From the IMG/VR virus record IMGVR_UViG_3300017781_004250, positions 1-26,815 of that record: a stretch of DNA of 26,815 nt, one strand, 5' to 3'. Of the stretch, positions 1 through 21,647 are shown piece after piece. Both the position numbers and the translations under genes were made by a program. This DNA comes from a virus. The stretch's first letter is position 1. Each line of letters begins with the position of its first letter. Under the pieces are notes generated by a model that saw only the letters and a program-made list of their open reading frames with translations, was not told the DNA's origin and did not search any database.

Positions 1-441
1 AAACACGTGTGTGTCCACTGCTATGTGTGGTTCACCAAATACGAATCTCATCACAATGTCTGAACTTTTCCTGCCTACCCCCGGTAACGTCATTAATTCT
101 TTTTGTGTCCTTGGTACTTTACCATTAAACTTTTCTAGTATCATTTTGCTAGTGGCCAGTATGTTTTTACTTTTTGCGTTGTGTAATCCTGCAGGTCGAA
201 TTGCTTCTATCACTTCGTCTTGTGTTAATTTTAGCATATCTTCCGGTGTGTCAGCTAATGCGAACAGTTGTCTACAGGCCACTGCGGTCCTTTTGTCTTG
301 TGATTGTGCTGACAGCATCACACCTATGAGACTGGTGTACGCTTTAGAATAGATTTTTGCTTTAGGTTTCTTGTTAGAATATTCTGGATATAGAGAACTT
401 AATTTCTCATATATGTAGCCAATGTCATTACTGTTCTTCAT
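1..441 (-). CDS. nth: Endonuclease III-like DNA glycosylase/AP lyase (partial, runs off window)
   Basis: I translated this reading frame by hand: 147 codons from ATG at 441 to the window edge with no stop, so the C-terminus is missing. The protein matches the endonuclease III (Nth) fold in order. It has an N-terminal helical region with LSAQSQD (compare LSAQATD in E. coli Nth), then GLHNAKSKNI, then the helix-hairpin-helix LPGVGRKSS whose lysine is the Schiff-base nucleophile in the family, and finally VDTHVF carrying the catalytic aspartate. The family removes oxidised pyrimidines and cuts the abasic site. The four-cysteine iron-sulfur loop would lie outside the window and cannot be checked. 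The gene follows helicase gp41 and overlaps its end by 14 bases, so it probably shares that transcript. No good ribosome binding site is visible, which suggests coupled translation. Confidence 0.9.
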   Translation of the reverse strand, partial: MKNSNDIGYIYEKLSSLYPEYSNKKPKAKIYSKAYTSLIGVMLSAQSQDKRTAVACRQLFALADTPEDMLKLTQDEVIEAIRPAGLHNAKSKNILATSKMILEKFNGKVPRTQKELMTLPGVGRKSSDIVMRFVFGEPHIAVDTHVF

Positions 442-1870
442 CTGAGTGCAGTTCGTTTAGAAGTTGTCTCAGTTTGCCGCCTTCCACATTGGCTTTCACT
501 TTGCCTATTGTGTCACCCTTACGTGGATCCGGCACATCTGGTCTTGCATCTTTTGGCGTACCTTCTGATGCTGACACTTTAGATGTCTGTTTCAGTGAAT
601 CGTATATTGTGCTTCGCTGTTTGTCAAACTGTTTGTATTCCGGATCATCTGCCAAGTCTCTTATACGTAAACTGTCAACATCAAACTCTAAATCTACTTT
701 CTGTCCGACTCCTGAACTAGATCTAGTCTTCATGAACTGTATCTGATATCTTCCTCGTTCTTTCATAGCCCTACTTGTGAATATACCAATCACGTTGTCT
801 GCTGTCTGTATCTTGGATAGCCCACCTGAGATGTGAGAGTGATCAAACTCAATTTCTTCTACAGATGCTCTGTTTAACTGCGACGCTGTGGCCAATACAC
901 ACTGTTTTTCAACAACCAAGTTTCTCAGTTCCTCTGACACATACTTGTCTTTGATAAACAAGTCCGCTGGTGATATTCTTTTACTCTTTGGCATCATGAG
1001 ATCCAAATAGTCAATCAGTATGCAGTCTATCTTTTTTTTATTTTTAAGTTCTAGTTCTTTAAGATATGTTCTCACGTCCAATACATTGCTACCACTTGGC
1101 AAGTATTTGATCTGCAAAGTACCTGATTTTTTCTTCAGCATCTTGACCTTCATCTCAACATTATCTATTTCAGGAAACACTTTCTTAGTTGGAATGTTAG
1201 TCATCATTGCGTCCAACCTCATTGCCGTTAGTTGTTCACTTAATTCAAAAGATATGTAACACACATTCAGGCCTGCCTGTGCCCAGTTCACCGCAAGATT
1301 CTGCAAGAACAAACTCTTACCTGCACCTGATCCACCTGCAAAAATGTTTAGCTCTCCTCGATTAAATCCACCGAATAATTTCTTGTCCAAGTTATTCCAG
1401 CCAGTACTGACTTGTCCGTTGTTTGCCTTGAGTGCCTCAAGTCTTCCCTTCGGATCCTCAAAGTAGTCTGTACCAAGATCACGTGTTAGCCCTACGTTTA
1501 CTGCTTCCTTGACCATGTCCTCCACTGGAGCATAGTCTCCCTTTTCCAGCATGTCTGCGGACTGAAGTATTGCGTGTTCTAGTGCTTTGTGTCTTGAAAA
1601 AGTTTCAAACTCATCTAGTAGCCAATTGAAATGATTTGGATCCAAGTCCTTGGCTGATTTTAGTTTGATATCATGTTTTGCATTTACCTGTTCGACATCA
1701 GGCATAACCTTGTATTCGTCCATGTAGTCTTTTACAAACTTGGCTATTGGTTGTAGTTTACGATCAAACGATTCTGGTTTAAATATGTTCTGTGCTCGTG
1801 CAAATGATTCAGCATCTGCAAGAAGCATCTCAATGTAAAGTTTTTGTACGTCAAAAGTATATTCAGCCAT
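428..1870 (-). CDS. 41: Replicative DNA helicase, T4 gp41-like (DnaB family)
   Basis: A 480-residue hexameric helicase of the DnaB/RecA superfamily that unwinds the fork 5' to 3' and recruits primase in T4-type replisomes. The N-terminal 150 residues form the helical domain. The motor domain has Walker A GGSGAGKS at residues 179-186, Walker B ILIDYLDL near 284-291, and a later ATASQLNRAS stretch typical of DnaB helicases. Length is close to T4 gp41 (about 475). The start ATG at 1870 has GGAG about six bases upstream and overlaps the end of the radical SAM gene by eight bases. It lies in the order primase, radical SAM, helicase, endonuclease III, all on one strand, so it is most likely co-transcribed with the primase. 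The acidic C-terminal tail follows a proline- and lysine-rich linker. Confidence 0.95.
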   Translation of the reverse strand: MAEYTFDVQKLYIEMLLADAESFARAQNIFKPESFDRKLQPIAKFVKDYMDEYKVMPDVEQVNAKHDIKLKSAKDLDPNHFNWLLDEFETFSRHKALEHAILQSADMLEKGDYAPVEDMVKEAVNVGLTRDLGTDYFEDPKGRLEALKANNGQVSTGWNNLDKKLFGGFNRGELNIFAGGSGAGKSLFLQNLAVNWAQAGLNVCYISFELSEQLTAMRLDAMMTNIPTKKVFPEIDNVEMKVKMLKKKSGTLQIKYLPSGSNVLDVRTYLKELELKNKKKIDCILIDYLDLMMPKSKRISPADLFIKDKYVSEELRNLVVEKQCVLATASQLNRASVEEIEFDHSHISGGLSKIQTADNVIGIFTSRAMKERGRYQIQFMKTRSSSGVGQKVDLEFDVDSLRIRDLADDPEYKQFDKQRSTIYDSLKQTSKVSASEGTPKDARPDVPDPRKGDTIGKVKANVEGGKLRQLLNELHSDEEQ

Positions 1871-2771
1871 TTTTTACTCCGCACTTTATTTTACAACAAT
1901 CATGTGCAGAAGTAAATTGATTTGTTGACTCAAAGAACTCTTTTACTTCCGCTTTGGTTAAAATATCTTGTAATGAATTGTTTTCAATATTATATTGTTT
2001 TTGTTTTGGTGAGAACGCACTTTTAAACTTATAACGATATGTAGCTATCCAACAGCAAGGATAAAAGTCACCTTCTGCATCTATGTACAGTCTTTTGGCA
2101 GGTTTATCATTTACCATGCAGTAGGGTTTCATGCTTGTTTGATAGTCCCTATCGATCAACACCTTCTGTTGATGTTCGTAGTGCGTATCAACAAACTCCC
2201 TGTCTGGCATAAGTTCTTTTTTACCCAGCCATCGATCGCTATGTTCCAACATGAAACTATCGAACCCAAGTTTTACTGAGAGATTTTTTGCGGCCATTAT
2301 CTGATGTTGGTTATGTTTGAATACAATATATTTCCACTCCATTTCACATTGCCGATCACGTAAAATTTCTATAGCGTTCATGATTGATTTCCATTTTGCG
2401 TTTTTTCTATACAGATGGTTTGTATCTTCCAATCCATCAATTGAAAATGTAATCTTATCATCTTTATCTAAAATGTTGTTTAGTGTACGCCACCATTTTT
2501 TAGTTTTTGACGAGCCGTTGGTCATAATACTAATTTTACAATTATTTGATTTCAAGCGTTTACACAAGGTATGAAAGTTGGAATGGTAGATAGGATCACC
2601 ATTATTACCACACATGTTTACATCTGCATTCACACCAACGAAATTGACGAGATGTTCTATGTTGATCTCATGCAAATTTCTTTTTTTGAATGTTTCATAA
2701 AACCAAGTCCTGTCACACAGAGGACATTCAAGCGTACATTTACTTGTAGGTTCTATATGAAAACTAACCAT
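1863..2771 (-). CDS. Radical SAM protein with SPASM-like C-terminal cysteines
   Basis: A 302-residue protein. The N-terminal CTLECPLC (C12, C16, C19) is the CxxxCxxC cluster that binds the 4Fe-4S used to cleave S-adenosylmethionine. CGNNGDP at 54-60 corresponds to the GGEP-type SAM-binding motif. The C-terminal third has further cysteines (C218, C239-C240, C292-C293, C297) arranged like a SPASM or twitch auxiliary cluster domain. Such enzymes often modify peptides or sugars; the substrate here is unknown. The gene sits between primase and helicase, overlapping each by eight bases, with AAGGA six bases before the ATG. That fixes the start and implies coupled expression with replication genes, although nothing shows a role in replication. 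The fold call is firm; the function is open. Confidence 0.88.
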   Translation of the reverse strand: MVSFHIEPTSKCTLECPLCDRTWFYETFKKRNLHEINIEHLVNFVGVNADVNMCGNNGDPIYHSNFHTLCKRLKSNNCKISIMTNGSSKTKKWWRTLNNILDKDDKITFSIDGLEDTNHLYRKNAKWKSIMNAIEILRDRQCEMEWKYIVFKHNQHQIMAAKNLSVKLGFDSFMLEHSDRWLGKKELMPDREFVDTHYEHQQKVLIDRDYQTSMKPYCMVNDKPAKRLYIDAEGDFYPCCWIATYRYKFKSAFSPKQKQYNIENNSLQDILTKAEVKEFFESTNQFTSAHDCCKIKCGVKNG

Positions 2772-3777
2772 ACATTTTCCTTTTCAATTCGATCTTAAGT
2801 TTTGTTTTCTCTGCAGTCTTTAGTATTGACTGTATTACAAACAGTCTTCCATATTTTGCCACAGCATCCGCCACGTCATTAACCTCGTCGGCCCATTCCG
2901 GGAAAGCCACACTCCATCCAAATTCAATTGCTTGATTAATCAGTTTTCCTCCAGGGGCATCTCTATCTGGCACTATTATTACTTGTCTGCCTAACCCATC
3001 TATCAATTCTCTTTGTGTATCATTTACCTCCGAGCCTAGTATACTAACACCAGAAATGGTTATTGCGTCAAACGGGCCTTCAGTGACAATAACAAACTTT
3101 CTTGTCCAATCCTGTGCATCCATGTTGAATACGTATCCAGGCCAAACGTCTGTGTAATATTTTACTCCTTCAGATTGTTCAAACATCCTACCAGTAAATC
3201 CAACTATGTCTCCCTTCCAATAGAATGGAATCAAAAGTCTCTGATGCACGTCCCAAACTTTACTAGTCGAGTACATGAAGTCATACCAATCGGGTCCAAT
3301 GCCTCTACTAGATAGATATGTCAACATATTGTCTATACTTTTCTGTTCTGTGTCTGACAATGTTCCTGTTGTGTATTTTTCCAACCATGCGTCCAACGAC
3401 TTGGTATTGTTTGGCAAATTTTTTCTGTTGAATGTTATAAACTTTTTCTTTTCATACTTGATGTCACTCTCCTCTTCACGCATGGCTTCTATGGCAAGTT
3501 TCTTTATGGTGTCGTCTGGTATGCCTATGTAGCCCATGAACTGTCTCATCTTGTAAGTCAGTTTCCTACCAATGACATAACTTGATTTAAATCCACAGTT
3601 GAAACAATGGTAACTCACAGTTCCGTCTGCACTGGTCATTAGCCCTCCACGTTTCTTTTTGTCAGCAGTCTCGCCATTGTACACACAACAAGGTGCGTTA
3701 AAACTTATCCAACCGCTTGGTGTTTTCTTTCTGTTCGCAGGAAGACTAGTCAGAATTGTATTCTGTATAAGATTCAT
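2764..3777 (-). CDS. 61: DNA primase, T4 gp61-like (zinc ribbon plus TOPRIM)
   Basis: A 337-residue primase that makes RNA primers for lagging-strand synthesis and works with gp41. The N-terminal zinc-binding region has C30-C31 and HCFNCGF (H57, C58, C61). The catalytic TOPRIM domain shows VTEGPFDAI (E233, D237) and VPDRDAP (D271, D273), the metal-binding acidic residues of DnaG-type primases. Length matches T4 gp61 (about 342). ATG at 3777 follows the end of the putative virion gene by 13 bases. The next gene (radical SAM) begins inside its last codons. It shares the strand with helicase gp41, one gene further on, so the T4 primase-helicase pair is kept with one gene inserted between. Confidence 0.94.
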   Translation of the reverse strand: MNLIQNTILTSLPANRKKTPSGWISFNAPCCVYNGETADKKKRGGLMTSADGTVSYHCFNCGFKSSYVIGRKLTYKMRQFMGYIGIPDDTIKKLAIEAMREEESDIKYEKKKFITFNRKNLPNNTKSLDAWLEKYTTGTLSDTEQKSIDNMLTYLSSRGIGPDWYDFMYSTSKVWDVHQRLLIPFYWKGDIVGFTGRMFEQSEGVKYYTDVWPGYVFNMDAQDWTRKFVIVTEGPFDAITISGVSILGSEVNDTQRELIDGLGRQVIIVPDRDAPGGKLINQAIEFGWSVAFPEWADEVNDVADAVAKYGRLFVIQSILKTAEKTKLKIELKRKMYG

Positions 3778-3790
3778 AATCTATATTATT

Positions 3791-4591
3791 TTACTGTCTA
3801 TATAGGATTTTGTCAATCACACCAGTGTTACTAGAGCTGTTGCCCCAAGCAAATCTTACACTGTGGTAAACACCAGTAAAGTTGAAATTGGTAACTGTGG
3901 TTGAGTCAGTGAAAGAATTGGCTGGCGATCCTGCATCTTCCATGGTAATGTCAAAGTAATCTGTTTCACTAGGTGAAGCACTCATTGTACCCTGTACTCT
4001 CAATGCTCCTGTAAAGTTTTTTGTGTACACAGCAATAGTGTGTAATGCCTTGTTATTGTTTATTCCTGGACGTGCATCTATCGATCCAGACACATATGCA
4101 AGTGGTCCGCCACTTGAGAAAGTTGAAACGGTCGTACTTGCTACAAATTCAGGATAAGCTCCGTCAAGAAGTTCAACTGTGCCAGCGGCCGCATAGCCTG
4201 TGTCCGAATATGTAATTTCCCTGCTACCATCCGACTTAACCTCTCTAACTGCAAAGTTGTAAAATTTAGCATCCAATGGCAATAGATCGCCTTCAGTGAT
4301 GGTACAACTAGCGTCACCTTTTGTGCTGGTAGTTGATCCGTCATCTAAAATGGTCAGTGTCTTTGTAATCACGGCTTCTTTGCTCTCTGAATCGATCATA
4401 TTGAATTCATAGGTCTTGGATGTGATGTCCTGTGCCTTCTGGTCTTCGTTCTTGAATGTGAACGTAACGGGGTTGGATACCCCTCTGTGCAGTGTTAAGC
4501 GTCTGTCGTACACGTTAGAATTCCTCCCGTGATAACCACTTACATAAGCGATTACCAGTTGTGATAGTAAATACCTTTGAACTGTTTGCAT
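3791..4591 (-). CDS. Putative virion structural protein, beta-rich (BppU-N-like start)
   Basis: A 266-residue protein with no catalytic motif. It is rich in Thr, Ser, Asn and Gly and looks almost wholly beta-strand, as phage surface proteins do. After a 30-residue N-terminus, the stretch LTLHRGVSNPVTFTFKNE followed by TITEGDLLPLDAKFYNFAV resembles the strand pattern of the N-terminal domain of phage baseplate upper protein BppU and of decoration proteins seen in marine T4-like phages. The remainder has a second beta domain ending in VIDKILYRQ. A perfect T4 late promoter box (TATAAATA) lies 16 bases upstream of its ATG, which fits a structural role. Its place directly before primase is odd for a late gene. 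A structural role is inferred from composition and promoter; the exact part of the virion is unknown. Confidence 0.6.
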   Translation of the reverse strand: MQTVQRYLLSQLVIAYVSGYHGRNSNVYDRRLTLHRGVSNPVTFTFKNEDQKAQDITSKTYEFNMIDSESKEAVITKTLTILDDGSTTSTKGDASCTITEGDLLPLDAKFYNFAVREVKSDGSREITYSDTGYAAAGTVELLDGAYPEFVASTTVSTFSSGGPLAYVSGSIDARPGINNNKALHTIAVYTKNFTGALRVQGTMSASPSETDYFDITMEDAGSPANSFTDSTTVTNFNFTGVYHSVRFAWGNSSSNTGVIDKILYRQ

Positions 4592-10757: not shown

Positions 10758-11234
10758 ATGAAAAAAAGTAAAAGTAAAAAAGTAAATGCTCGGAAACAAC
10801 TAAAAGTCAAATTGGAGAATACTCTAACTAGACACAAAAACGTTGTGGGATTCAAACCCACACAACAGCAAGTATACCAATGGTTCAGAGTAATAAACAG
10901 AGGCTTATTCAACAGTAGATTACCAATGGTGGAGCTACAAGTTAAAAAATTACACAAAGACTGGGGCAGATGTGTCGCCAATTGGGACAATAGGAAGACT
11001 CCAAAAGGCAAATTTGATCAGAGAGTTATACCGTATCATATAGATGTAGAGTTCTACATCGAACTACACTGTAAGTTTCCTACGTGGAAAGATTTTATAG
11101 AAACACTGGCCCACGAAATGGTACATCTTTACCAAATGACATGGCTGAAAGATCCTTATTCAAACCACAATGCAAACTTTTTTGCTTGGAAAAATAAATT
11201 TAAAAACGCAGGACTAGGTCTGACTAGGTGTTAG
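10758..11234 (+). CDS. SprT-like zinc metallopeptidase
   Basis: A 158-residue protein with the SprT-like domain. QVYQWFRVINRGLFNSRLP near the start matches the first helix of the family. The zinc site is HEMVH at 119-123 (two His ligands and the general-base Glu), with the third ligand probably H137 in HNANFFAWKNKF, a spacing typical of SprT and Spartan. The cellular relatives cut proteins crosslinked to DNA; phage members are uncharacterised. The N-terminus is highly basic, and there is no C-terminal zinc ribbon. It is the only plus-strand gene between two minus blocks, divergent from the UvsW unit across a 64-base gap, and overlaps the convergent sugar-island gene by 21 bases. Confidence 0.88.
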   Translation: MKKSKSKKVNARKQLKVKLENTLTRHKNVVGFKPTQQQVYQWFRVINRGLFNSRLPMVELQVKKLHKDWGRCVANWDNRKTPKGKFDQRVIPYHIDVEFYIELHCKFPTWKDFIETLAHEMVHLYQMTWLKDPYSNHNANFFAWKNKFKNAGLGLTRC

Positions 11235-11954
11235 AACCTTATCAAACTCAGCATAACTTATAATCTTACTATTACCTAAGTCTGTGCCGGTTTGCAAATA
11301 GTTTAAGTAGTCCGGCGGATTGTCATGCACCACCGTGTAATTGACATAAGGTCTCATCTTCAACATGTCGCGGAACTGTTTCAGCCAACCATCAAAAATT
11401 GTATCAGCATGCCTTTCGCCGTAACATTCCGTTTCTTGATAGATATTGTTCAACTGGTCTTTACCGTATTCTCTGAAATCATATCCTAACAGATATATGT
11501 TTTTGTGGCCGTGGACTCCTGCTGTCCAGAATGCCTGGTTGCCTGAGATCCAGTGTGGATTGTTTGGAATAAGATGTATCATTCCTTTCGCATGCCTTCT
11601 GTTCACTTCGAGGGAGGGAGCGTAATGTATAGTCTGGCGTCCTACTCTGTCCAAGCACATCTGTGCGGTCATTTTTGCATCGACACTGAATATAAAGTCC
11701 GGGATAAAATCTCTGTATAAAGCGTTACATCCATACGTCTGTCCTGTTGCTTTTAATTTGTTCAGATCAAAATCTTTACGTGATGGTCCATTGCCTATGC
11801 AGTATGCATTTCCTCTTGGCACTGCTTGGACTTTGTCTTCGAAGAATTTTTTTTCGTGTATGCGTTGCCCTTGACGTATAATTGTGTTCACAATGATTTC
11901 TTCACCAACGTACTTTTGCCATTCTATTTCGGCCACTTCCTTGTTTCGTGCCAT
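11214..11954 (-). CDS. DUF115/MptE-like or sialyltransferase-fold protein
   Basis: A 246-residue protein with IGNGPSRKDFDL at 53-64, then TYGCNALYRDF and FSVDAK at 89-94. A G-N-G-P-S loop followed by a N-A-x-Y and a D-x-K block recalls DUF115/MptE-like proteins and the nucleotide-sugar site of some glycosyltransferases. The middle has WISGNQAFWTAGVHGHKNIYLLGYDF, which looks like a Rossmann strand-loop. It is the last gene of the 14358-11214 run and shares a single base with the end of the KpsS-like gene (start at 11954). Context supports a part in glycan handling, possibly transfer of a sugar or sugar phosphate. The substrate is unknown and family assignment is tentative. Confidence 0.6.
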   Translation of the reverse strand: MARNKEVAEIEWQKYVGEEIIVNTIIRQGQRIHEKKFFEDKVQAVPRGNAYCIGNGPSRKDFDLNKLKATGQTYGCNALYRDFIPDFIFSVDAKMTAQMCLDRVGRQTIHYAPSLEVNRRHAKGMIHLIPNNPHWISGNQAFWTAGVHGHKNIYLLGYDFREYGKDQLNNIYQETECYGERHADTIFDGWLKQFRDMLKMRPYVNYTVVHDNPPDYLNYLQTGTDLGNSKIISYAEFDKVLTPSQT

Positions 11955-12826
11955 TATAAGTATTTCTCCTCTAACCTTTCCTTAATACGTTTCCATGGCC
12001 GTCCTTGATGTATTTCTTCTGTCCACCATTCCGTGTACGCTAACTTGTTAAGCCATTTTTGCCTGTCGGGCATTTGCGGATTGTCTATGTTGTCGAAGGA
12101 CGTGTTGCCGATATCGTAACTTAGGCTTGCCTCAGATACGTACACTGGTATTCCATGAATGGCCGCAGTGATGGCAGGATTGCTTGAATAACTTACAAGT
12201 GCCCAAGCCGACTTCAAACGTTCAGTAAGGTCTGTGTCGTCATATGTAGTGTTGTCTCTTTTAGGGCCTACTATTTTTACATCTTTATATTTGCCTGTAT
12301 CGATAATGACATGATTCCTTGGATGTGGCCTTATGGTAATTGGCCTGTCTGTGTATTTTCTAATTTCGGTTATCTGTTGATCAAACCATTTCGACATGGG
12401 TGGATTGTGACGCCACTGGTGACTGTTAGTATGCTGTCCACAAACTATAATGTTTTCACCTGTCTGATGCCATGGTTTAATGGCAACCTTAAATTTTTTC
12501 CAACGTTCCCCGTCGACAACTTCATTGGCAAAGTCGGCTTCTCTGTTTACACCGTTGATGCCAATTTTCCAAGTTTCATTTCTCTTAATACCTCCCACCT
12601 CTATAACAATTACAGGCTTGTTGTTTTTCTTGTATCGCTCCCATATATCTTTGTATCTCCGCATGCGGCCTTGCCATAACACGCTCCAGATTACTGCTAC
12701 GTCACCATTGGGTGCTTGTTTGTTCACCCAAACTTGTTCTCCAGATGCACGTAATGATTCAATAAACTTGTTGAATACTTCTTTGGAATTCAAAGGACCG
12801 TGCTCAGGCCAAATTTCTATGTTCAT
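11954..12826 (-). CDS. KpsC/KpsS-like glycosyltransferase, copy A
   Basis: A 290-residue protein resembling the capsule polysaccharide (KpsC/KpsS) type of GT-B glycosyltransferase. The C-terminal half carries YTDRPITIRPHPRN at 158-171, SAWALVSYSSNPAITAAIHG around 206-225, then IPVYV. The tail reads DNPQMPDRQKWLNKLAYTEW followed by an EI-x-x-G turn. The same set of blocks recurs in three other genes of this window (14354-15337, 16108-16923, 19432-20244). In the KpsC/S family such blocks bind the CMP-linked donor. The gene is packed between a DxD glycosyltransferase and the DUF115-like gene with one-base overlaps at both ends, so one transcript is likely. Confidence 0.7.
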   Translation of the reverse strand: MNIEIWPEHGPLNSKEVFNKFIESLRASGEQVWVNKQAPNGDVAVIWSVLWQGRMRRYKDIWERYKKNNKPVIVIEVGGIKRNETWKIGINGVNREADFANEVVDGERWKKFKVAIKPWHQTGENIIVCGQHTNSHQWRHNPPMSKWFDQQITEIRKYTDRPITIRPHPRNHVIIDTGKYKDVKIVGPKRDNTTYDDTDLTERLKSAWALVSYSSNPAITAAIHGIPVYVSEASLSYDIGNTSFDNIDNPQMPDRQKWLNKLAYTEWWTEEIHQGRPWKRIKERLEEKYL

Positions 12827-13746
12827 TAGTTGCCTTGTCTTCCTTTTGCAACCTTGCTAACAATATCTTGCTCTTGTTTCGCGTCAAATTTAATACCTCT
12901 AAATGGGTCATAGTCTTCTACGTTCTGCCAGTAGGCTTCGTTCCGTTCGCCACGAAGATCGCTCTTACTACTTTTACCTAGCACTTTCCTTTTACCTTTC
13001 ATGTGATCAACATAGCCACCTAGCACACTGTTAATGAATACATGATGCCCTTTAGCACCTGCACCTTTTCCAATGTCCACACCGTCGTTGGGTGCTATCC
13101 TTTTCACACACTGCCAAAAAACGTAACTGTCGTGCCATTCTAGTTCTTTGAATATGGTGTCTTTGACATAGAGATCTGTCCAGTACTTCATAAATTCATT
13201 TATTTTTGGGTGCCTCTTGTTGTAGCAAACCCAACCACACTCTGGATATTTTTCACCCCTTCCGAGAAAATTTACAAGTTTATCACTAGGTAGTAAAGCT
13301 GTAACGAATGCAGTTGTAATTTTCCTAAATGTGTATGTGTCTGCATCTAGCCATAGGATGTAGTCAGCATCTATTGTTTTAATAGCATGATCTACTGCAA
13401 ACGTTTTGTGAGCAAATCTAACGGCATCCCACAAGTAAGAGCCCTTTCCTTTATCACTTTTTCCTGCGTTTGGGTCTCTTCTTACCCCTCCTGGTATTTC
13501 TTTTATTTCTCCGTTGGCAACTGGATCGTCTTTGTGTTTTTGTTTAAATTTTACAAGCTCTGGGTTGGCCTCTTCGATGTTTATAAATTTTACTTTGCTG
13601 TGATTAAAATCTGGTTTTACACCTTCGTGATATGCGTATAGCACAACATCGTCAGGCCAAAATTCAACATGACTCTCTAACATCCTCTTTGCATATGCTG
13701 TCCACCTGTTTGGCGGAAAGGTTGTAACAACTGCGAGACTACTCAT
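12826..13746 (-). CDS. Glycosyltransferase with DxD motif (GT-A type)
   Basis: A 306-residue protein. YILWLDADTYTFRK around residues 129-142 contains the hydrophobic strand and DxD (D134, D136) that hold the metal and nucleotide sugar in GT-A glycosyltransferases. The N-terminus LAVVTTFPPNRWTAYAKRML and the later GWVCYNKRHPKINEFMKYW and ELEWHDSYVFWQ blocks fit a GT-A-like catalytic domain. The tail is lysine-rich. No signal peptide or membrane helix is seen, so it should act in the cytoplasm. It overlaps the methyltransferase gene upstream by eight bases and the KpsS-like gene downstream by one. Donor and acceptor sugars cannot be read from the sequence. Confidence 0.75.
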   Translation of the reverse strand: MSSLAVVTTFPPNRWTAYAKRMLESHVEFWPDDVVLYAYHEGVKPDFNHSKVKFINIEEANPELVKFKQKHKDDPVANGEIKEIPGGVRRDPNAGKSDKGKGSYLWDAVRFAHKTFAVDHAIKTIDADYILWLDADTYTFRKITTAFVTALLPSDKLVNFLGRGEKYPECGWVCYNKRHPKINEFMKYWTDLYVKDTIFKELEWHDSYVFWQCVKRIAPNDGVDIGKGAGAKGHHVFINSVLGGYVDHMKGKRKVLGKSSKSDLRGERNEAYWQNVEDYDPFRGIKFDAKQEQDIVSKVAKGRQGN

Positions 13747-14341
13747 AATTTCCTAACATGTACACACCAACACGTCTGCCTACTTTATGTTCAATTATTT
13801 GCGGAAATGTTTCCATCATCTCTCCATGGCTCCAGTCGTCCTTTATGTGTGCTTCGTATGGATTACCGTGAACTGGTTCTTGTGGGTAGTGTATGATAGG
13901 AATGCTAATAAACAAGTAGGTGGATATCCTTAATATTTGCTCAACTACTTGCACTGCATCTTCTTTCGCCATATGTTCTAAAACATCACCAGCCACCGCA
14001 ACATCAAAAGGCCCTAGTTTGTTGTAGTCTAACTTCCTCACATCTTCATTTAGTATTGTATCATATTTGGATCTTAGATCAAATTTATCAATGTAGGGCT
14101 CCCACACCTCCACACCTGTCCATCTGTGTTCACTTAATGGACCAGCGTCAATTTCCCAATTTTGTTTTAGTGTTTGGTATTTGTCTCCACCTGCTTGATA
14201 TTTGTGTTTTAGGCAATTTAAATATGCGCCTTCTCCAACACCTATGTCTAATGCGGCCTTGTGTGTAAGTTTGCCTTGCACTTTTAACTGTTCGACCCAT
14301 TCGACAATGGTTGCTTTCCCGGCTTTTTTACTATGTGGCAT
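13739..14341 (-). CDS. SAM-dependent methyltransferase (class I)
   Basis: A 200-residue class I methyltransferase. Motif I is ALDIGVGEGAYL at 30-41, the acidic strand-2 end lies in GVEVWEPYI at 76-84, and motif IV-like FDVAVAGDVLEHM spans 112-124, as in small-molecule and lipid or sugar methyltransferases. There is no DNA-methyltransferase DPPY motif, so a sugar or other surface substrate is more likely than phage DNA. ATG at 14341 lies nine bases after an exact TATAAATA box, suggesting that a late transcript begins here. The gene leads a run of four genes (methyltransferase, DxD transferase, KpsS-like, DUF115-like) with overlaps throughout. Confidence 0.8.
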   Translation of the reverse strand: MPHSKKAGKATIVEWVEQLKVQGKLTHKAALDIGVGEGAYLNCLKHKYQAGGDKYQTLKQNWEIDAGPLSEHRWTGVEVWEPYIDKFDLRSKYDTILNEDVRKLDYNKLGPFDVAVAGDVLEHMAKEDAVQVVEQILRISTYLFISIPIIHYPQEPVHGNPYEAHIKDDWSHGEMMETFPQIIEHKVGRRVGVYMLGNYE

Positions 14342-14350
14342 AATACAACC

Positions 14351-14358
14351 TATTTATA
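14351..14358 (-). promoter_or_regulatory. Late promoter-like box TATAAATA inside the sugar island
   Basis: An exact match to the T4 late promoter core on the minus strand, overlapping the stop codon of the preceding gene and ending nine bases before the ATG at 14341. With T4 spacing the RNA would start only about four bases before the ATG, so the message would be almost leaderless. That makes the site plausible but uncertain. Confidence 0.4.
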
Positions 14359-15337
14359 GACCCAACTTTGACTTGAATCTTTTATAAACTGTGCCGTCTT
14401 TTATCTCATTGATACTCCAAAGTTTATACCCGAGATCATTCACCCACTGTGTCCTGTCCGGAGTATCGGGAGTTTCTATATTGTTTAAATCTTTGTTACA
14501 AACGTCCCAACATAGTGCGAGATTGGATGTGCAGAAAGTTGGAATACCTCTTATACAACTGTCGACACTGGCTGTGGAGTTATGAGTTACAACAGCGTGT
14601 GCATTTGAAATGGCTTCTTGAAAATGGAATCTGTAATATTTTTTTTCGTCACCGACAAAATTTTTTTGTGTGTATTGAATTTCAACATCGTCGGGTAGTT
14701 CGTCCTTGCGTTCTAGAATGTTTGACACATTGTTTGGATGAGGCCGTACAATAAATTTCCTACTTGTTGCGGGTCTAACTTTTTCATATACATCTTTGAA
14801 CCAATCTATCGGATCTAGCTCGTTCATGCTCCAGTTGTCTTTAGGTTGTAGCACAAATATGATCGGATCTTCTTGGTTGGATTTCCTCCATGGTTCATAT
14901 TTTACATCAAACTTCTTCACCAACATGTCCCAACGATCGCTAGGACTGTCATTTGATAGGAAGTCGCCGTCGTTCATTGGCGTGTACAATGACACTCTGA
15001 AATGATGATCAGGTGATGTTGAAACATTACCAAAACTAGATAGGAGCCCACCGTCAAATGTTATTAGTGGAATTTTTTTTGCCCTGCAGTTGTCTGCGAG
15101 TTCTCTACGCCTACCTTTAGTGTGGTGCATCTGTTTGTCTCCACCATAACCAAACATTGCCGCCATTGGTGCAGTGGGCACCATTTCGCCTTCAACGGTT
15201 GGACCTGATCTGTTTTCATTAACTATAATTGGTTCATCCCCAGAGACCTCAATACCTTTTTTTAGATGGTAAAGCAGTTCATAACTGTTTCCACGTTTAC
15301 GATCCTTAACCGTCCTACGGAATATTTCAACTTTCAT
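14354..15337 (-). CDS. KpsC/KpsS-like glycosyltransferase, copy B
   Basis: A 327-residue member of the same family as copy A, with a longer N-terminal half. Shared blocks are RKFIVRPHPNN around 193-203, ISNAHAVVTHNSTASVDSCI around 243-262, IRGIPTFC, and the tail NNIETPDTPDRTQWVNDLGY followed by KLWSINEIKDGT. The RPHP block and the THNSTAS loop are the best-kept family signatures, so this copy looks catalytically complete. I start it at ATG 15337; a TTG one codon upstream is less likely. It overlaps the end of the FkbM gene by 11 bases. The N-terminal region (residues 1-110) is unlike that of copies A, C and D, which may mark a different acceptor. Confidence 0.7.
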   Translation of the reverse strand: MKVEIFRRTVKDRKRGNSYELLYHLKKGIEVSGDEPIIVNENRSGPTVEGEMVPTAPMAAMFGYGGDKQMHHTKGRRRELADNCRAKKIPLITFDGGLLSSFGNVSTSPDHHFRVSLYTPMNDGDFLSNDSPSDRWDMLVKKFDVKYEPWRKSNQEDPIIFVLQPKDNWSMNELDPIDWFKDVYEKVRPATSRKFIVRPHPNNVSNILERKDELPDDVEIQYTQKNFVGDEKKYYRFHFQEAISNAHAVVTHNSTASVDSCIRGIPTFCTSNLALCWDVCNKDLNNIETPDTPDRTQWVNDLGYKLWSINEIKDGTVYKRFKSKLGL

Positions 15338-16115
15338 CAATGTCCTTCCTAAAGAATATTAGTTCCATCATTTTTTTTGATCTTTTCCTGTTTATGTAGA
15401 TATTATACTTTGTTCGATGCAAATTGTAAAGCTCCCTGACTTTATCAAATGCCTCTTCAATCGTCATGCCAACGGTCAACTCTATCTCTGTTACCCAGTA
15501 CTTCACGTCTAAGTTTGCTATTTCTTTACCAACATCGTGCCAAAGTCCTTCTACATCTGTTTTCAGGATGTCAACACTGTCCCACTCCAAATCTGCCATT
15601 ATTGTGGTGATATTTTTGCATTCTACTTCAATGGTCTCTAAACTGTTACCTTGGTCAATCAATGAATAACTGGCTGGAATTGGTAAGTCATTCCATTTAC
15701 CTTTGTGTCCATCCGGTGGATAAAAAGTAAAAAAGCCGTTAACAGGGCCATAAGCAACAGGATAAAATTTAAGACAGCGATTGATTATCTTTTGACTATG
15801 TTTGCCACCTTTTCTTATGCTGGCAAAATAGTGATATCCACCCTGCTGTAATATTCTTTTTATATAAAATTTGGTTGCAGGAGTCGGGTCAAACATACGC
15901 ACATCAAGGGAGTTATTATCAACACATATCAACTTCTCAAAGTGGGCGTCTGCACCTATGCCGAAGCTCAACACCCTTTTAGAATTTTTTACATGATATT
16001 CAGGCACATGGTAGTTCCTATACAGTTTGAAATCCTGGGTCTCAAACAATTCTTCTTCGAACCTTCTGATTTGTCCGATTATATTTGCATCGTCTGGTTT
16101 AGGTATATCAGCCAT
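15327..16115 (-). CDS. FkbM-type methyltransferase, copy 1
   Basis: A 262-residue protein. VLSFGIGADAHFEK at 48-60 is a variant SAM-binding loop, MFDPTPATKFY at 74-84 is the strand-2 acidic region, and VDILKTDVEGLW at 181-192 is the hallmark IKxDVEG motif of FkbM-family methyltransferases. The family usually O-methylates sugars or polyketides. It differs from the second FkbM gene here (21002-21628) in having a longer N-terminus and a degenerate motif I. It lies between KpsS-like copies B and C with short overlaps, so the methylated product is probably the sugar these enzymes build. No membrane segment is seen. Confidence 0.8.
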   Translation of the reverse strand: MADIPKPDDANIIGQIRRFEEELFETQDFKLYRNYHVPEYHVKNSKRVLSFGIGADAHFEKLICVDNNSLDVRMFDPTPATKFYIKRILQQGGYHYFASIRKGGKHSQKIINRCLKFYPVAYGPVNGFFTFYPPDGHKGKWNDLPIPASYSLIDQGNSLETIEVECKNITTIMADLEWDSVDILKTDVEGLWHDVGKEIANLDVKYWVTEIELTVGMTIEEAFDKVRELYNLHRTKYNIYINRKRSKKMMELIFFRKDIDES

Positions 16116-16923
16116 TTAACATTCTCCATGCTGTGCCGTCTGCCATTTCTTTCAAACTCCAGTTGTTGTAGGCTAGGCTTGAAAACAGTGCAACCCTATC
16201 ACCATAAAGTGGTGTTTCGATTTTTGCAAAATCTTTTTCAGATATCGGTGCCGCCGCACTATTCTTAGGGTCACATAGCACCGGTACACCATTTGCCAGA
16301 CTGGCAATCATGGTATTGGAGTTGTATGTCACTGTGGCATAGTAATCTTTCCAATTAATTTTATCTTTGTGTGTTGTTGGTTTATCTACCTTCACAGTGG
16401 CACCCACATGATCCATTTCTACTGTAGGATTGTAAGGCTTTTCACGAACATCTATCTGTCTGTCTGTATTTTCTTTCAGTGTCTTAAGTGTGTCATCTAA
16501 CCAGCCTTTTGCATTGAAGAAGTTTGCGATCGCATTAGTAGGTGGCAGGACCAATATTTTTCCACCTTGCTTGTTCCATGGTTTAATGTCCTGTTTGAAA
16601 TGTTTTTCATACCTATCTGTTGGTCTCTCTTGTAAAATGTTCTGGCAGTGTTTGTTTTTTGTTATCCTTAGCCAATGTGGGGTATTGTGGGCGTTAGTAA
16701 AGTACCCATGATCCATAAAATAAAAATCCTTGTCTTCCTTCTCGCACCATTTGTAAATCTCACCTGAACCGGCCAGTATTCCATACATTGTTAAATTTTC
16801 TTCTGGTAAGGCTACTAGATCTCGGAATTGATAAATTTTATTTGCTCCTGGAGTACCTTTTACAAAAGCATCAACATATCTTTGTGTACGTGGTTTGGTC
16901 GTGTTTATTCCTGCTATGTTCAT
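16108..16923 (-). CDS. KpsC/KpsS-like glycosyltransferase, copy C (altered motif)
   Basis: A 271-residue relative of copies A, B and D. The N-terminal half includes DFYFMDHGYFTNAHNTPHWL (66-85). The family block around 152-164 reads NTDRQIDVREKPY, so the usual R-P-H-P has become R-E-K-P; a true family histidine is lost. The rest is kept: VTYNSNTMIASLANGVPVLC (198-217), KIETPLYGDRVALFSSLAYN and the WSLKEMADGTAW ending. The nearest relative by eye is copy D, which has R-H-K-P at this place. The changed residue may alter donor use or activity. The gene overlaps the oxygenase gene by four bases and the FkbM gene by eight. Confidence 0.68.
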   Translation of the reverse strand: MNIAGINTTKPRTQRYVDAFVKGTPGANKIYQFRDLVALPEENLTMYGILAGSGEIYKWCEKEDKDFYFMDHGYFTNAHNTPHWLRITKNKHCQNILQERPTDRYEKHFKQDIKPWNKQGGKILVLPPTNAIANFFNAKGWLDDTLKTLKENTDRQIDVREKPYNPTVEMDHVGATVKVDKPTTHKDKINWKDYYATVTYNSNTMIASLANGVPVLCDPKNSAAAPISEKDFAKIETPLYGDRVALFSSLAYNNWSLKEMADGTAWRMLNG

Positions 16924-17675
16924 TTCCTAAGTTCTTTTACTTCAAACATTTTTTGTTTTGACGCCCTATTGAATTCTGCAATGATGTTGACGCTTCTTCT
17001 ATGTAACTGTGCATTTTGCCTAGCAGAAACGCTGTGTACATTTTTTGTTGAGTTGTTACAAAAAGCAACTAGTGTGTTAGGTTTGTATGGTACAGTGTTT
17101 ACTATTGCACCAGCTTTGTCGCCAACCGCTCGCCCACCATTTTTATTGACCTCGTGTATCTCATCATTTGTTTTATGTATGCGGAACTCACCACCTGTAC
17201 TTTGATCATCCGCATACGGCATGTAAAGTAATAATGCATAGATCTCTCGAGGATTGTCAATATGAGGAGTTCGGGAACTAAAGTCGATTGGTTTATGCAT
17301 CACTGTCTGGCAGTCAGTGCCAATCCAGTCACCACCTTTATCCCAACCACGTGGACTTAGAGTGTTTTCTAAATTTGGCACATGAGGCATAAGCTCGCCA
17401 AAGGCTTCTTTCATTTCTTTATAGAAAGCTACAGAGGTATGATACTCTGTAAATTCTTTCCATATACTGGAGACTTTTCCTGGTTTAAGCATTTCGTCTG
17501 CTTTAAGTCTGTAGCATATGCCCGAGTCAAATGGTTCTGTGGCTAACAGTTGTTCTTTGGGCCATTTCTTTTCAAGATCGTCATATACATTCTGTGGCAA
17601 TGCATCTTCTATTATAAAGTATGGATAAGGTTCAAGCACTAATTCGGGAGTTTTCTGTAGCACGGAAAGGTTCAT
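16920..17675 (-). CDS. 2-oxoglutarate/Fe(II)-dependent oxygenase
   Basis: A 251-residue oxygenase of the prolyl-4-hydroxylase-like 2OG-Fe(II) group. The iron triad is H138 and D140 in TPHIDNPREIYALLLYMP, and H214 in NSTKNVHSVSAR. The 2-oxoglutarate anchor is an arginine at 226 or 227 in HRRSVNIIAEF. TGGEFRIH at 160-167 lies between them, as in the family. Such enzymes hydroxylate peptides, small molecules or sugars; similar genes are common in marine T4-like phages, without a known substrate. Its position among glycosyltransferases suggests modification of a glycan or its carrier. It overlaps KpsS-like copy C (ATGA-type overlap) and the GT61 gene. Confidence 0.85.
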   Translation of the reverse strand: MNLSVLQKTPELVLEPYPYFIIEDALPQNVYDDLEKKWPKEQLLATEPFDSGICYRLKADEMLKPGKVSSIWKEFTEYHTSVAFYKEMKEAFGELMPHVPNLENTLSPRGWDKGGDWIGTDCQTVMHKPIDFSSRTPHIDNPREIYALLLYMPYADDQSTGGEFRIHKTNDEIHEVNKNGGRAVGDKAGAIVNTVPYKPNTLVAFCNNSTKNVHSVSARQNAQLHRRSVNIIAEFNRASKQKMFEVKELRK

Positions 17676-18760
17676 TCTAGGTGCTCCATTATATCAGGTA
17701 TGTTGATTTTGAAATTAATCATGTCGCTGAATCTTTTTACTCCTTCTAATTTTTTTCCTTTATCTCTTGGTATTTCTACAACATCGGCTAGATAAAGTTT
17801 ATGGTCTAAGTTTAGATTGTGTGATAACAAGGGATAGACTTTCTTGTGTACCATGTTCCTATCTTGTATTTCTATAACTTTTGTTCCTGGTTGACACCAT
17901 AACAAATTGGTCATTCCTGCACCGTGTGCCGCCAACACGTGTGATGCTTCTGCAAATGTTTTCATTTGATCTTCAATACTTAAATTTTCTAATGTCACAG
18001 TTTCCCAACCTTTAAGTTTTAAAAGCAATTCGTCGGAGTTGATCATTCTTCTAGTTTTTGCTCCGGGTCGTAGCACTACAATTTTCCGATGTGGTTTCAC
18101 GCCTTTCAAATTATTAAGACCTTTGAAGTGTCTTAGCCATGGTGCCAGCGGTGGCACAATTATTCCGTCTTTAGAGTTACTCATGCTTGGGACAATCAAA
18201 TGTTTAAATTGCCATGTTTCTCCATGCGGCATAAAAACTATTTTTACATCAGGAAATAATGCCTTACAAACTTTCTCAAAATATGGACTCTTATTAGGAA
18301 CAATATAGCAAAATCTTGCAAAGTTTGTTGACCACCTTTTCTCTATCAGTCTAAATTTAGATATGACATCAATCCATACATGCCAAGGATTATGCTTGGT
18401 ATCGTCATCAATCGGAAGCCAGACATAGGTGTGACTTTCGTTAAAATTTTGTGTCACTGGAGGTAACTCCAGATCTACAGTATCACTCCATTCCGTCCAC
18501 ATCTTGTGACTCTTGCCAGGCTTGTGCCTACGTTTGTGGGTTAACTTCCATACATATTCCGTGATAAGTTTGTTTTCTCTTGTCAGTAACAACGGGCAAG
18601 TATGTACTCTACATTCATGGAACTCCGCTACAAATGTTGGTAAACTTGTAAAGTGAGGGTCAATGGACTCATGATAAGGCACAGTATAGTTGTACTCTGG
18701 GTCAACCATCTCCCAACGGTCGAGGAAATACTTCAGTGAGTTAATGTTTTTGACTGACAT
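17672..18760 (-). CDS. GT61-family glycosyltransferase (DUF563)
   Basis: A 362-residue protein with the GT61 signature HVLAAHGAGMTNLLWC at about 274-289, followed by PGTKVIEIQDRN. The preceding KIVVLRPGAKTRRMINSDEL is the conserved arginine-rich block of the family. GT61 enzymes transfer xylose, arabinose or GlcNAc in known cases; the sugar here is unknown. A longer frame to 18859 exists, but it begins with GTG and would run through the promoter and into the start of the divergent gene, so ATG at 18760 is the better start. It leads the minus-strand half of the island and is followed by the oxygenase with a four-base overlap. Confidence 0.82.
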   Translation of the reverse strand: MSVKNINSLKYFLDRWEMVDPEYNYTVPYHESIDPHFTSLPTFVAEFHECRVHTCPLLLTRENKLITEYVWKLTHKRRHKPGKSHKMWTEWSDTVDLELPPVTQNFNESHTYVWLPIDDDTKHNPWHVWIDVISKFRLIEKRWSTNFARFCYIVPNKSPYFEKVCKALFPDVKIVFMPHGETWQFKHLIVPSMSNSKDGIIVPPLAPWLRHFKGLNNLKGVKPHRKIVVLRPGAKTRRMINSDELLLKLKGWETVTLENLSIEDQMKTFAEASHVLAAHGAGMTNLLWCQPGTKVIEIQDRNMVHKKVYPLLSHNLNLDHKLYLADVVEIPRDKGKKLEGVKRFSDMINFKINIPDIMEHLE

Positions 18761-18783
18761 TTTATTAATAATTATGTTATAAT
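18754..18783 (+). promoter_or_regulatory. Sigma70-like promoter for plus-strand sugar genes
   Basis: CTGACA (18754-18759), an 18-base spacer, and an exact TATAAT (18778-18783) preceded by TGT, which forms an extended -10. The predicted start is near 18790, only two bases before the ATG at 18792, so the message would be nearly leaderless. The 31-base gap is shared with the divergent GT61 gene. Confidence 0.55.
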
Positions 18784-18791
18784 ACACTACT

Positions 18792-19457
18792 ATGATATTA
18801 TTTTCAAATGGATGCAGTTTTCTTACCACTCGTCCCAAGGACGGCGTTGACACATTCACCTCACAAATACTAGCAAAAAATTACGGAATGGATTTAGCAA
18901 ATTTGGCCATGGGTGGTAGAGGCAATGACAGGATAAGTTTCAGCACCAAGGTCTGGTTTGAACAGAATGGTAATGAAGATAAATTTGCAGTGATAGGCTG
19001 GTCCAGTTCGAATCGTAACGACTACTGTACAAACGATGGGCACAAGGCAGGTAGAATTAGGGGAACTAGCCTCACATGGAGGACATGGAAGACTTTGGAC
19101 AATGTCAGTTTCATAAGGAGTCACAAAGGATATGATATAGATTACAATGCCACCATGGGTTTCTTAGATAATGTCTTTGACCTACAGAATTATTTTGAGC
19201 GGAGACGTATTCCATACGTCATGTACAATTCGCTACCAAATGATTTTTATCATAAAGGTGTCACAGACTTTAAAGTTATAAAGGAAGCGATCAACATGGA
19301 TAGGTTTTTCAGTCCGGCTGTGAGCCAATATGAATTTATTGTTGATAAAGGATTGCTGGTCAGTCCAAATGACCCACACCCATCGCAAGAAGGTCATCAA
19401 CAATGGGCACAACAACTAAAGGGCTTCATAGATGCTAACAATCTACGCACCATTTAA
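18792..19457 (+). CDS. SGNH-like hydrolase/esterase, copy 1
   Basis: A 221-residue protein with the blocks of a phage SGNH-type hydrolase: SNGCSF at 5-10 (S9 as candidate nucleophile), NLAMGGRGNDRI at 37-48 (Gly and Asn of the oxyanion hole), and NDPHPSQEGHQQWA with D194 and H196 as the other triad members. SGNH enzymes commonly add or remove O-acetyl groups on sugars. A second copy with the same block order lies at 20241-21005. It is the first gene of the plus-strand half of the island and overlaps the next gene by 26 bases. No signal peptide is seen. Confidence 0.72.
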   Translation: MILFSNGCSFLTTRPKDGVDTFTSQILAKNYGMDLANLAMGGRGNDRISFSTKVWFEQNGNEDKFAVIGWSSSNRNDYCTNDGHKAGRIRGTSLTWRTWKTLDNVSFIRSHKGYDIDYNATMGFLDNVFDLQNYFERRRIPYVMYNSLPNDFYHKGVTDFKVIKEAINMDRFFSPAVSQYEFIVDKGLLVSPNDPHPSQEGHQQWAQQLKGFIDANNLRTI

Positions 19458-20244
19458 CAATAAAAAAAGTAAAGCATGGGAAGTGTTCGACGGGGTCGAG
19501 AAATCTTGGCCGGATCAAATATCAAAATTAGATAATGCAATTGAAACAGATCCTGTAGGTAACAGTATGTTTTGGGGATTCGTAAACAATAATTTGGAAA
19601 TGGTCAAGAAATTGGAAGCACGTAACCACAACTACTGGTTTACGGACACGCCTTACTTTGGCAGATTTGACAACAGTAATTTAAAACCTAACAATCATTT
19701 TTGGCGTGTGTGTAAGAATGCAATACATGTTCCATACATCAAAGACTGCAAAGCAGATAGGTTTGAAAAATTTGGAATTAAAATAAAGGCGCCTGCGTTT
19801 GCTGGCAAGTACGTATTGATTTGTCCTAGTTCAGATGGCATAAATGCTTACCTGGATCAACCAGACTGGACAAATGAAACAATAGAAAAAATTAAAAGAT
19901 ATACTGACAGACCTATCAAACTTCGACACAAGCCTAGGGGCAGGGGTACATCAGGACCGAGTGAGGCAAAGGTACCCCTATCCGAGGACTTAAAAGAAGC
20001 GTGGTGTGTGGTAACAAGCTGTTCAATATCAGCAGTGGAGGCCATGTGTGAGGGTGTGCCTGTGTTCTGCCACGATAAAAGTTTTGCAACGGATGTGGCA
20101 AACACAGAACTTGCTGACATAGAGAATCCATACTATGGTGGACCGGAACCGTGGTTGTACAGCCTGGCGTATCAACAGTTTACACCCGAGGAATTGATGG
20201 ATGGCACGGCAGTTGAAATCTTGCTAGACAAAGGACTGTTATGA
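19432..20244 (+). CDS. KpsC/KpsS-like glycosyltransferase, copy D
   Basis: A 270-residue family member on the opposite strand from copies A-C. It has YTDRPIKLRHKPRG at 157-170 (RPHP replaced by R-H-K-P), VVTSCSISAVEAMCEGVPVF at 193-212, and the tail LADIENPYYGGPEPWLYSLA. Two cysteines flank the serine loop. The N-terminal half (HNYWFTDTPYFGRFDN, then PNNHFWRVCKN) pairs with DFYFMDHGYF and HWLRITKN of copy C, so C and D are probably the closest pair. ATG at 19432 lies inside the preceding SGNH-like gene, and its stop overlaps the next ATG as ATGA. It is thus enclosed between the two SGNH-like genes. Confidence 0.68.
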   Translation: MLTIYAPFNNKKSKAWEVFDGVEKSWPDQISKLDNAIETDPVGNSMFWGFVNNNLEMVKKLEARNHNYWFTDTPYFGRFDNSNLKPNNHFWRVCKNAIHVPYIKDCKADRFEKFGIKIKAPAFAGKYVLICPSSDGINAYLDQPDWTNETIEKIKRYTDRPIKLRHKPRGRGTSGPSEAKVPLSEDLKEAWCVVTSCSISAVEAMCEGVPVFCHDKSFATDVANTELADIENPYYGGPEPWLYSLAYQQFTPEELMDGTAVEILLDKGLL

Positions 20245-21005
20245 AAAAATTAGTTCACTTTGGTTGTTCTTTCGCTGTTGGCAATGCAGTTCCTACTTAC
20301 ATACCAGGTATGGATTCTGGAGCCTACATACATCAGGTAGCAAGAAGAAGGAAACTAGAAAAAAAATACAAAATAAAGATAGGACTACCTACCAATTGTG
20401 GAAAAATACTGGCGAGAGCTTTACAGTTGGAATATAAAATGATAGCAGAAAATGGTGGTAGTAACGAAAGAATTTTTAGAAATATGTTACAAACGGATTT
20501 GGACAACTCAATCGTTTTGATAGGATTGACAAGTTACAACAGGCGTGAAGGCCTAACCACCAGTCAGGACAGCAGTCATTGGCACACATGGAAAATTGTA
20601 GGGCCTGAAGAGCGTGCGGGTTACAAGGATTTAAAATTTGATCCATGGGTGAACAAAGACAAAAGAGAATATTATCCTGCAATAGAGGAAGAGGGACAGA
20701 TCAAGACATCAATGCAAATACTTTACATGCAAAATTATTTGAAGGCAAACGGTGTACCATACATTATGTACAATGCCCTTTACAATGGATTCGACGATCC
20801 CTTAACAGATGAGTGTAAAAAATTACTGCGGATGGTAGATCAAACGAGATATTACAAACTGCAAGGCAGTTTCAATGAAACACAGCACGGATGGTGCCTC
20901 TCTAGAAAGATGGTGGTATCCGAATTAGACGAACATCCAAACACGATGGGTCAAACTGCATGGGCGGATCAGCTGATGCCATTAGTCCAAAAAATTATAC
21001 AATGA
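20241..21005 (+). CDS. SGNH-like hydrolase/esterase, copy 2
   Basis: A 254-residue relative of the 18792 gene: VHFGCSFAVG with S10 as candidate nucleophile, ENGGSNERIFRN at 70-81 as the oxyanion block, a shared middle (YLKANGVPYIMYNALYNGF; compare RRRIPYVMYNSLPNDF in copy 1), and LDEHPNTMGQTAWA with D230 and H232. The insert at 20-50 is rich in Lys and Arg and is absent from copy 1. The pair probably arose by duplication with divergence, perhaps for two acceptor positions. The ATG overlaps the stop of KpsS-like copy D, and its own stop overlaps the next ATG (ATGA), so translation is coupled along the run. Confidence 0.72.
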   Translation: MKKLVHFGCSFAVGNAVPTYIPGMDSGAYIHQVARRRKLEKKYKIKIGLPTNCGKILARALQLEYKMIAENGGSNERIFRNMLQTDLDNSIVLIGLTSYNRREGLTTSQDSSHWHTWKIVGPEERAGYKDLKFDPWVNKDKREYYPAIEEEGQIKTSMQILYMQNYLKANGVPYIMYNALYNGFDDPLTDECKKLLRMVDQTRYYKLQGSFNETQHGWCLSRKMVVSELDEHPNTMGQTAWADQLMPLVQKIIQ

Positions 21006-21628: not shown

Positions 21629-21647
21629 CATAAATTAAATACTTAAA

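Follow-up and report, generated by a model that had tools for sequence, protein, structure and literature searches.

The radical SAM (rSAM) gene lying between the primase and replicative helicase genes of the phage DNA analysed here is almost certainly dispensable cargo, one of several interchangeable passengers in a fixed slot of a marine jumbo-phage lineage. As a single explanation, we consider it likely that the slot is moron-like and that cargos placed in it take over a predicted helicase promoter, the present occupant being a putative enzyme for tailoring a sugar or other small molecule. The window, by which we mean the whole stretch of DNA analysed, is a 26.8-kb fragment from IMG/VR; its relevant features are collected in Table 1.

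Table 1. Features of the window that bear on the primase/helicase slot.
Feature	Position	Strand	Basis
Radical SAM / SPASM-Twitch-type enzyme gene, cargo	1863..2771	-	302 aa; Pfam, family alignment, AlphaFold model
CX3CX2C radical SAM cluster motif (C12, C16, C19)	2715..2738	-	Family alignment, conserved
SPASM/Twitch-like C-terminal region (C218, C239, C293, C297)	1881..2105	-	Pfam SPASM residues 223-297; conserved cysteines
Primase (gp61-like)	2764..3777	-	phrog_47 5.8e-38
DnaB-like replicative helicase (gp41-like)	428..1870	-	Pfam DnaB_C; phrog_19 1.4e-72
8-nt overlap ATGGTTAG, rSAM start / primase stop	2764..2771	-	Same octamer in 22/38 rSAM junctions
8-nt overlap ATGGCTGA, helicase start / rSAM stop	1863..1870	-	Sequence
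TTTACT-17-TAAAAT, promoter-like, for helicase, inside rSAM 3′ coding end	1888..1916	-	Promoter scan; position -23; synonymous constraint
GGAG, probable helicase ribosome-binding site, inside rSAM codons (GGA GTA)	1877..1880	-	Read from sequence
Decayed remnant of primase-internal promoter-like element (GTTG...GTGnTAnAAT; invariant in empty relatives)	2853..2883	-	Comparison with empty relatives
TTGACA-17-TAAAAT, promoter-like, just before primase	3788..3816	-	Promoter scan
Sugar/modification island, same phage: GT61, FkbM methyltransferases, 2OG-Fe(II) oxygenase, DUF6071/SGNH-like, NAD epimerase	11214..25064	.	Gene context

A preliminary description of this DNA had reported that the rSAM gene overlaps both of its neighbours by eight nucleotides, and this is exact. 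The open reading frame runs from 2771 to 1863. The octamer ATGGTTAG (2771-2764) holds the rSAM ATG and ends with the primase stop codon, and the octamer ATGGCTGA (1870-1863) begins with the helicase ATG and holds the rSAM stop codon. In relatives with an empty slot ATGGCTGA forms the direct joint between primase and helicase. The primase-rSAM-helicase arrangement is not a chance one, because the same gene order and the same kind of overlap recur in many contigs.

The same description had pointed to rSAM and SPASM-like cysteines, which are indeed conserved, and the protein scores above the curated Pfam cut-offs for both Radical_SAM (PF04055; 8.2e-10, 39.5 bits against 29.5) and SPASM (PF13186; 1.1e-05, 26 bits against 21.5). 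The motif by which the radical SAM superfamily is recognized, CX3CX2C in the core domain, is present as C12-C16-C19. The only invariant C-terminal cysteines in the family alignment are C218, C239, C293 and C297; the seven-cysteine pattern for two auxiliary clusters does not appear in this alignment, and the pattern is that of one-cluster Twitch domains. A single Twitch-like auxiliary Fe-S cluster with four cysteines is predicted. The dN/dS ratio of the gene was 0.04-0.12 in most tested pairs and 0.28 in a single pair that had hardly any substitutions. These low values indicate that the gene is under purifying selection, and it is intact despite its patchy distribution.

To obtain a denominator for the states of the slot, we queried IMG/VR with the helicase and with the primase, never with the rSAM protein. 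The survey took the 80 nearest matches per query and so describes the nearest relatives; identical junctions were merged and related ones remain. Among the matches listed there were 107 distinct primase/helicase junctions, of which 56 were empty, with the primase gene overlapping the helicase gene directly, 33 held a member of the rSAM family and 18 held other cargo. These other occupants include GDSL/SGNH-like and SDR-like proteins, another rSAM protein, a 52-aa coiled coil, a small membrane protein and, by motif only, a 2OG-Fe(II) oxygenase-like protein (HxD...H) and a P-loop sulfotransferase-like protein. Most of them had no significant Pfam match. Two cargos share one slot in five contigs (L013, L020, L037, L168 and L172). 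The 52-aa coiled coil was considered as a peptide substrate of the rSAM enzyme and rejected, since it mostly occurs without the rSAM gene and contains no cysteine.

Jumbo myoviruses are the nearest cultured phages by primase and helicase, among them Pseudomonas phage PA5oct, whose two proteins are 35% and 55% identical to those of the window, Agrobacterium phage Atu_ph07 and Klebsiella phage RaK2. The slot is empty, with the same gene order, in all five cultured relatives inspected (PA5oct, Atu_ph07, Phosso, SCTP-2 and RaK2), and as this whole outgroup is empty, the empty state is most simply ancestral. Mapping rSAM presence on the helicase tree requires 22 changes, at least 10 of them forced by well-supported branches. 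Distances between primases and helicases are correlated (r=0.83), against 0.22 for rSAM with helicase and 0.29 for rSAM with primase. A recombination breakpoint was sought in the flanks of sister pairs, and no clear edge was found.

Several other features of these genomes were noted. Inserts also occur at other core-gene junctions of the same lineage (L005:1012-2976; L026:1795-3010 and 5809-6983), including a glycosyltransferase-like gene and another rSAM gene. In L046, L060, L062 and L099 the helicase begins with a short Asn/Gln-rich N-terminal extension, placed between the conserved ATGGCTGA and the usual start. The window carries a separate small open reading frame at 5262-5852 (minus strand) that matches the DNA polymerase family phrog_11778, and RaK2 and Atu_ph07 have a similar short DNA polymerase gene upstream of primase. 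One contig of the same phage lineage with the same slot arrangement, L264, is binned in a Pelagibacter MAG, which reflects either the host or misbinning.

The preliminary description offered two alternatives, that the enzyme modifies something needed in replication or that the gene was inserted without disturbing coupling, and proposed a survey of gene order as a check. The survey gave the outcome that the description itself had set against a role in replication: most close relatives lack the gene at this slot (74 of the 107 distinct junctions among the matches listed). Pairs of phages with a single helicase difference in 406-472 residues (1/406 or 1/472) differ in whether they carry it. A functional tie to primase and helicase, with the enzyme modifying a replisome protein or DNA, would fit the tight overlaps on both sides of the gene. 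It would also fit the positions of distant rSAM relatives, which adjoin gp46 and gp32/uvsX genes as well, and of a far lineage that likewise has primase followed by rSAM. In that lineage (L216:1709-3760; primase 43% identical) the primase and rSAM (33%) genes share an 8-nt overlap, and a helicase-like start comes after them. Against such a tie stand the near-identical helicases with and without the gene and the unrelated cargos that fill the same slot. No helicase residue tracked rSAM presence, the best column (p 0.01) being equalled by permutation. We regard the replisome tie as very improbable, and the case advises caution against taking operon position or start/stop overlap as functional linkage. 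In the primase one residue was strongly tied to rSAM, the Leu of DAVLKYGRLF (p 1.5e-14). It was rejected as a modification target; the signal extends over synonymous sites and has promoter spacing, and was therefore reassigned to the loss of a promoter-like DNA element.

That element lies in the primase tail. All empty junctions but one carry a frozen sequence, GTTGnnGA...GCnGTGnTAnAAT, which corresponds to TTGRCG-18-TAAAAT with an extended -10 and is located ~85 nt before the helicase start. The exact motif was present at 54 of 55 empty junctions, at none of 39 rSAM junctions (Fisher 1e-25, empty against rSAM) and at 10 of 18 other junctions, and phylogenetically independent pairs agreed with slot state in 10 of 10 cases (p 0.002). 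With a sigma70-type score using E. coli-type weights taken from general knowledge, the primase tail scored 10.7 +/- 0.9 in empty loci and 4.9 in rSAM loci, against a null of 4.3 (95th percentile 7.7). Before the helicase, rSAM loci had a mean score of 8.4 against a null of 4.5. Within the 3′ end of the rSAM gene, most rSAM junctions have TTTACA or TTTACT-17-TAAAAT at -23 relative to the helicase ATG, with the -10 falling in the codons TGT AAA ATA (Cys-Lys-Ile) of CCKIxCG, and in 30 of 39 a GGAG or GGAA occurs no more than 16 nt upstream of the aligned helicase start. A run of about 20 rSAM codons would combine the Fe-S ligands and the start/stop overlap with two helicase signals, a predicted promoter and the ribosome-binding site.

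Among the other cargos, the SGNH-like and sulfotransferase-like ones have TATAAT at -11 or -12 from the helicase, and at the 2OG-like, coiled-coil and membrane cargos the primase element is kept and there is no second element. Filled slots had a promoter-like site in the primase only in 10 cases, near the helicase only in 36, at neither place at threshold in 10 and at both in none. Three to four of the 10 junctions below threshold at both sites have a clear reason: in L013 and L172 the rSAM-borne promoter lies upstream of a second cargo, and L108 has a wrong start call. L007, L008, L126 and L155 are weak at both sites.

Synonymous sites were also compared. In empty phages the codons of the primase element are 97% uniform, against 66 +/- 10% elsewhere, a contrast that rSAM phages do not show; the tail element of the rSAM gene has codons that are 98% uniform, against 71 +/- 12%. 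Synonymous sites are thus nearly frozen at each element only where it is in use, which supports relocation. A generic promoter scan independently listed the window element at 1916-1888. The scan gave 43 hits in the window against 32.8 +/- 5.7 in shuffles, and because this excess is modest the scan alone proves nothing. As a positive control, an element of the TTGACA-17-TAAAAT class was found 12-16 nt before the primase ATG in 108 of 108 loci. In 38 loci the region upstream of the rSAM ATG showed no promoter-like site (mean score 3.3), so that the gene is probably transcribed together with primase, and the element upstream of primase probably drives both. A further embedded promoter-like site, TTTACA-17-TATAAT, is present in the window at 7943-7915 (minus strand) near the uvsW 3′ end, 22 nt before the next gene start. 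From these comparisons of sequence, it is likely that a predicted helicase promoter has relocated between the primase tail and the cargo tail. The second alternative of the preliminary description is accordingly supported for the start/stop overlaps, which are kept, and not for the helicase promoter-like element, which has moved into the inserted gene.

Slot contents would be exchanged between phages, probably by homologous recombination in the conserved flanks. To fit, a cargo would need an ATG that overlaps the primase stop and would have to leave the helicase with a promoter: with short or promoter-neutral cargos the promoter would stay in the primase 3′ end, and with long cargos such as rSAM it would lie in the cargo's own 3′ end, the primase copy being gone. 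Passengers could then come and go without switching the helicase off. We lean towards the view that cargo is tolerated in this replication operon because the promoter of the downstream core gene is rewritten in the cargo's coding tail, that several unrelated families have arrived at this independently, and that the principle may apply at other core junctions of large T4-like phages. This gives a testable rule for loading accessory genes into an essential operon, namely that the promoter is present exactly once and that the cargo may carry it.

An element that is intact when the slot is empty and altered when it is filled is also the pattern of intronless homing in T4 relatives (PMC2993671). 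On that account the primase-tail element would be the target of a homing endonuclease and the cargo would spread by intronless homing, and a SegE-type GIY-YIG gene does lie beside gp46-linked rSAM genes of distant phages. However, no endonuclease was found in or beside the slot: the slot cargos contain none, and a SegE GIY-YIG family model run on 20 contigs detected the family in one, ~75 kb from the slot. At ten junctions with cargo the element is intact. It has a -35/-10 layout whose -10 is also that of the primase promoter, and whenever it is lost a replacement stands before the helicase. These observations make homing very unlikely. A recombination haplotype, in which the primase end travels with the cargo as sequence without function, would account for the flank differing between the two states beyond the promoter (AGGA against AGAGAAAGA in the ribosome-site region). 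It is in turn distinctly unlikely, as the codons found at the element vary among filled alleles (A, S, Q, K, M and N), which are not a single haplotype, empty alleles are frozen at synonymous sites, and the compensating element recurs in several unrelated cargos.

Two junctions appear to record former occupants. L080, the sole empty junction without the primase motif, has TTGATC-17-TAAAAT right before the helicase, within the 60 nt around the start, and we read this element as a scar, such as would remain after deletion of a cargo without its promoter. In L037, where the slot now holds a different rSAM gene and an SDR gene, 30 nt between the SDR cargo and the helicase (L037:3957-3998) agree with an rSAM tail at 23 positions, where 20,000 random draws reached at most 21. 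This relic is likewise read as a scar, of a former rSAM occupant. The frozen primase-tail promoter can thus serve as a DNA mark for distinguishing filled slots from empty ones and for recognizing past occupants.

Related cargos are found at other junctions. In other T4-like contigs, a gp46-like gene is immediately followed by rSAM homologues of ~30% identity, and SGNH/DUF6071 or sulfotransferase genes separate the gp47-like from the gp46-like gene, with short overlaps. In L211, L221 and L227 (e.g. L221:1536-5993) gp46 is followed by one or two rSAM homologues together with the SegE-type GIY-YIG gene. The same kinds of cargo therefore enter replication and recombination modules at several junctions. 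A truncated rSAM homologue was also seen at a contig end beside gp32-like and uvsX genes (L335:5338-5994), in a contig whose primase/helicase slot is empty.

The AlphaFold model of the rSAM protein (pLDDT 91) matched SuiB, DesII, SkfB, anSME, MoaA, BlsE, PqqE and BtrN about equally (Z 15-19; 14-20% identity), and with such similar scores the fold favours neither a peptide nor a sugar substrate. Searched by sequence against solved structures, the single rSAM sequence gave no match and a profile gave only weak ones. Of the NCBIfam models W_rSAM_matur, NirJ, N_Twi_rSAM, QueE and viperin, none reached its cut-off (best 55.8 bits against 380, others far below). The gene's company is more suggestive. 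The window itself has the sugar/modification island of Table 1, with GT61, FkbM methyltransferase, 2OG-Fe(II) oxygenase, DUF6071/SGNH-like and epimerase genes, and cassettes in islands of sister phages encode rSAM, SDR and SGNH-like proteins akin to the occupants of the slot. In Pelagibacter phage Mosig a distant rSAM homologue lies in a group of aminotransferase, carbamoyltransferase and methyltransferase genes, and in Campylobacter phage CP220 several rSAM genes adjoin sugar transferase-like ones. Occurrence only in sugar islands was the other outcome that the preliminary description had set against its idea; members of the wider pool of radical SAM genes also occur in sugar or modification islands of related phages. 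From this gene company we tentatively suggest that the enzyme may modify sugars or other small molecules used in surface glycans.

SuiB, SkfB and anSME being among the nearest solved folds, a RiPP maturase acting on a phage or host peptide was also considered. The sugar enzymes DesII, BlsE and BtrN score similarly in the same search, however, and a radical SAM core beginning at residue 6 leaves no room for an N-terminal RRE, which is absent. Within the slot, no precursor gene fits between the overlapping genes, and a peptide maturase is unlikely. A viperin-like enzyme making chain-terminating nucleotides is extremely improbable: the weak similarity (NF038283, 30 bits; pVip, 33.5 bits) is far below the curated cut-off of 180 bits, and the protein has conserved C-terminal auxiliary-cluster cysteines. 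To our knowledge, viperins lack these cysteines.

The open-access literature searched yielded no report of a primase/helicase cargo slot or of promoter relocation. The enzyme shares fold and CX3CX2C core with the SPASM/Twitch enzymes listed above, but only at the low identities given, and no curated equivalog reaches its cut-off. Morons of lambdoid phages are extra genes between genes that are adjacent in relatives, with their own promoter and terminator. Slot cargo is similarly placed, patchy and dispensable in nature; unlike a moron, the rSAM cargo has no promoter of its own (38 loci), and the promoter-like element that it contains is one for the core gene downstream. The PeSLs of T4-type phages are mobile promoter and stem-loop cassettes (Arbiol 2010, Comeau 2014; PMC4503421). 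They resemble the slot in that a regulatory element is tied to gene shuffling between T4-like core genes, and differ in that the slot element is written inside protein-coding 3′ ends. Nor did a scan of the window find a terminator-like site at 1860-1900 or 2760-2780, where a PeSL would have its stem-loop. Intronless homing by seg and mob endonucleases, described in T4 relatives (PMC2993671), shares with the slot the one-sided presence of a gene between core genes and the altered flank in carriers; the slot differs in having no endonuclease in or beside it. Pelagimyophages are reported to differ in the radical SAM cassettes that adjoin LPS-type genes within their host recognition cluster (PMC7029224). 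Those too are marine phages with variable rSAM genes and LPS-type sugar genes, but their cassettes are in the host recognition cluster, whereas the slot rSAM gene lies in the replication operon.
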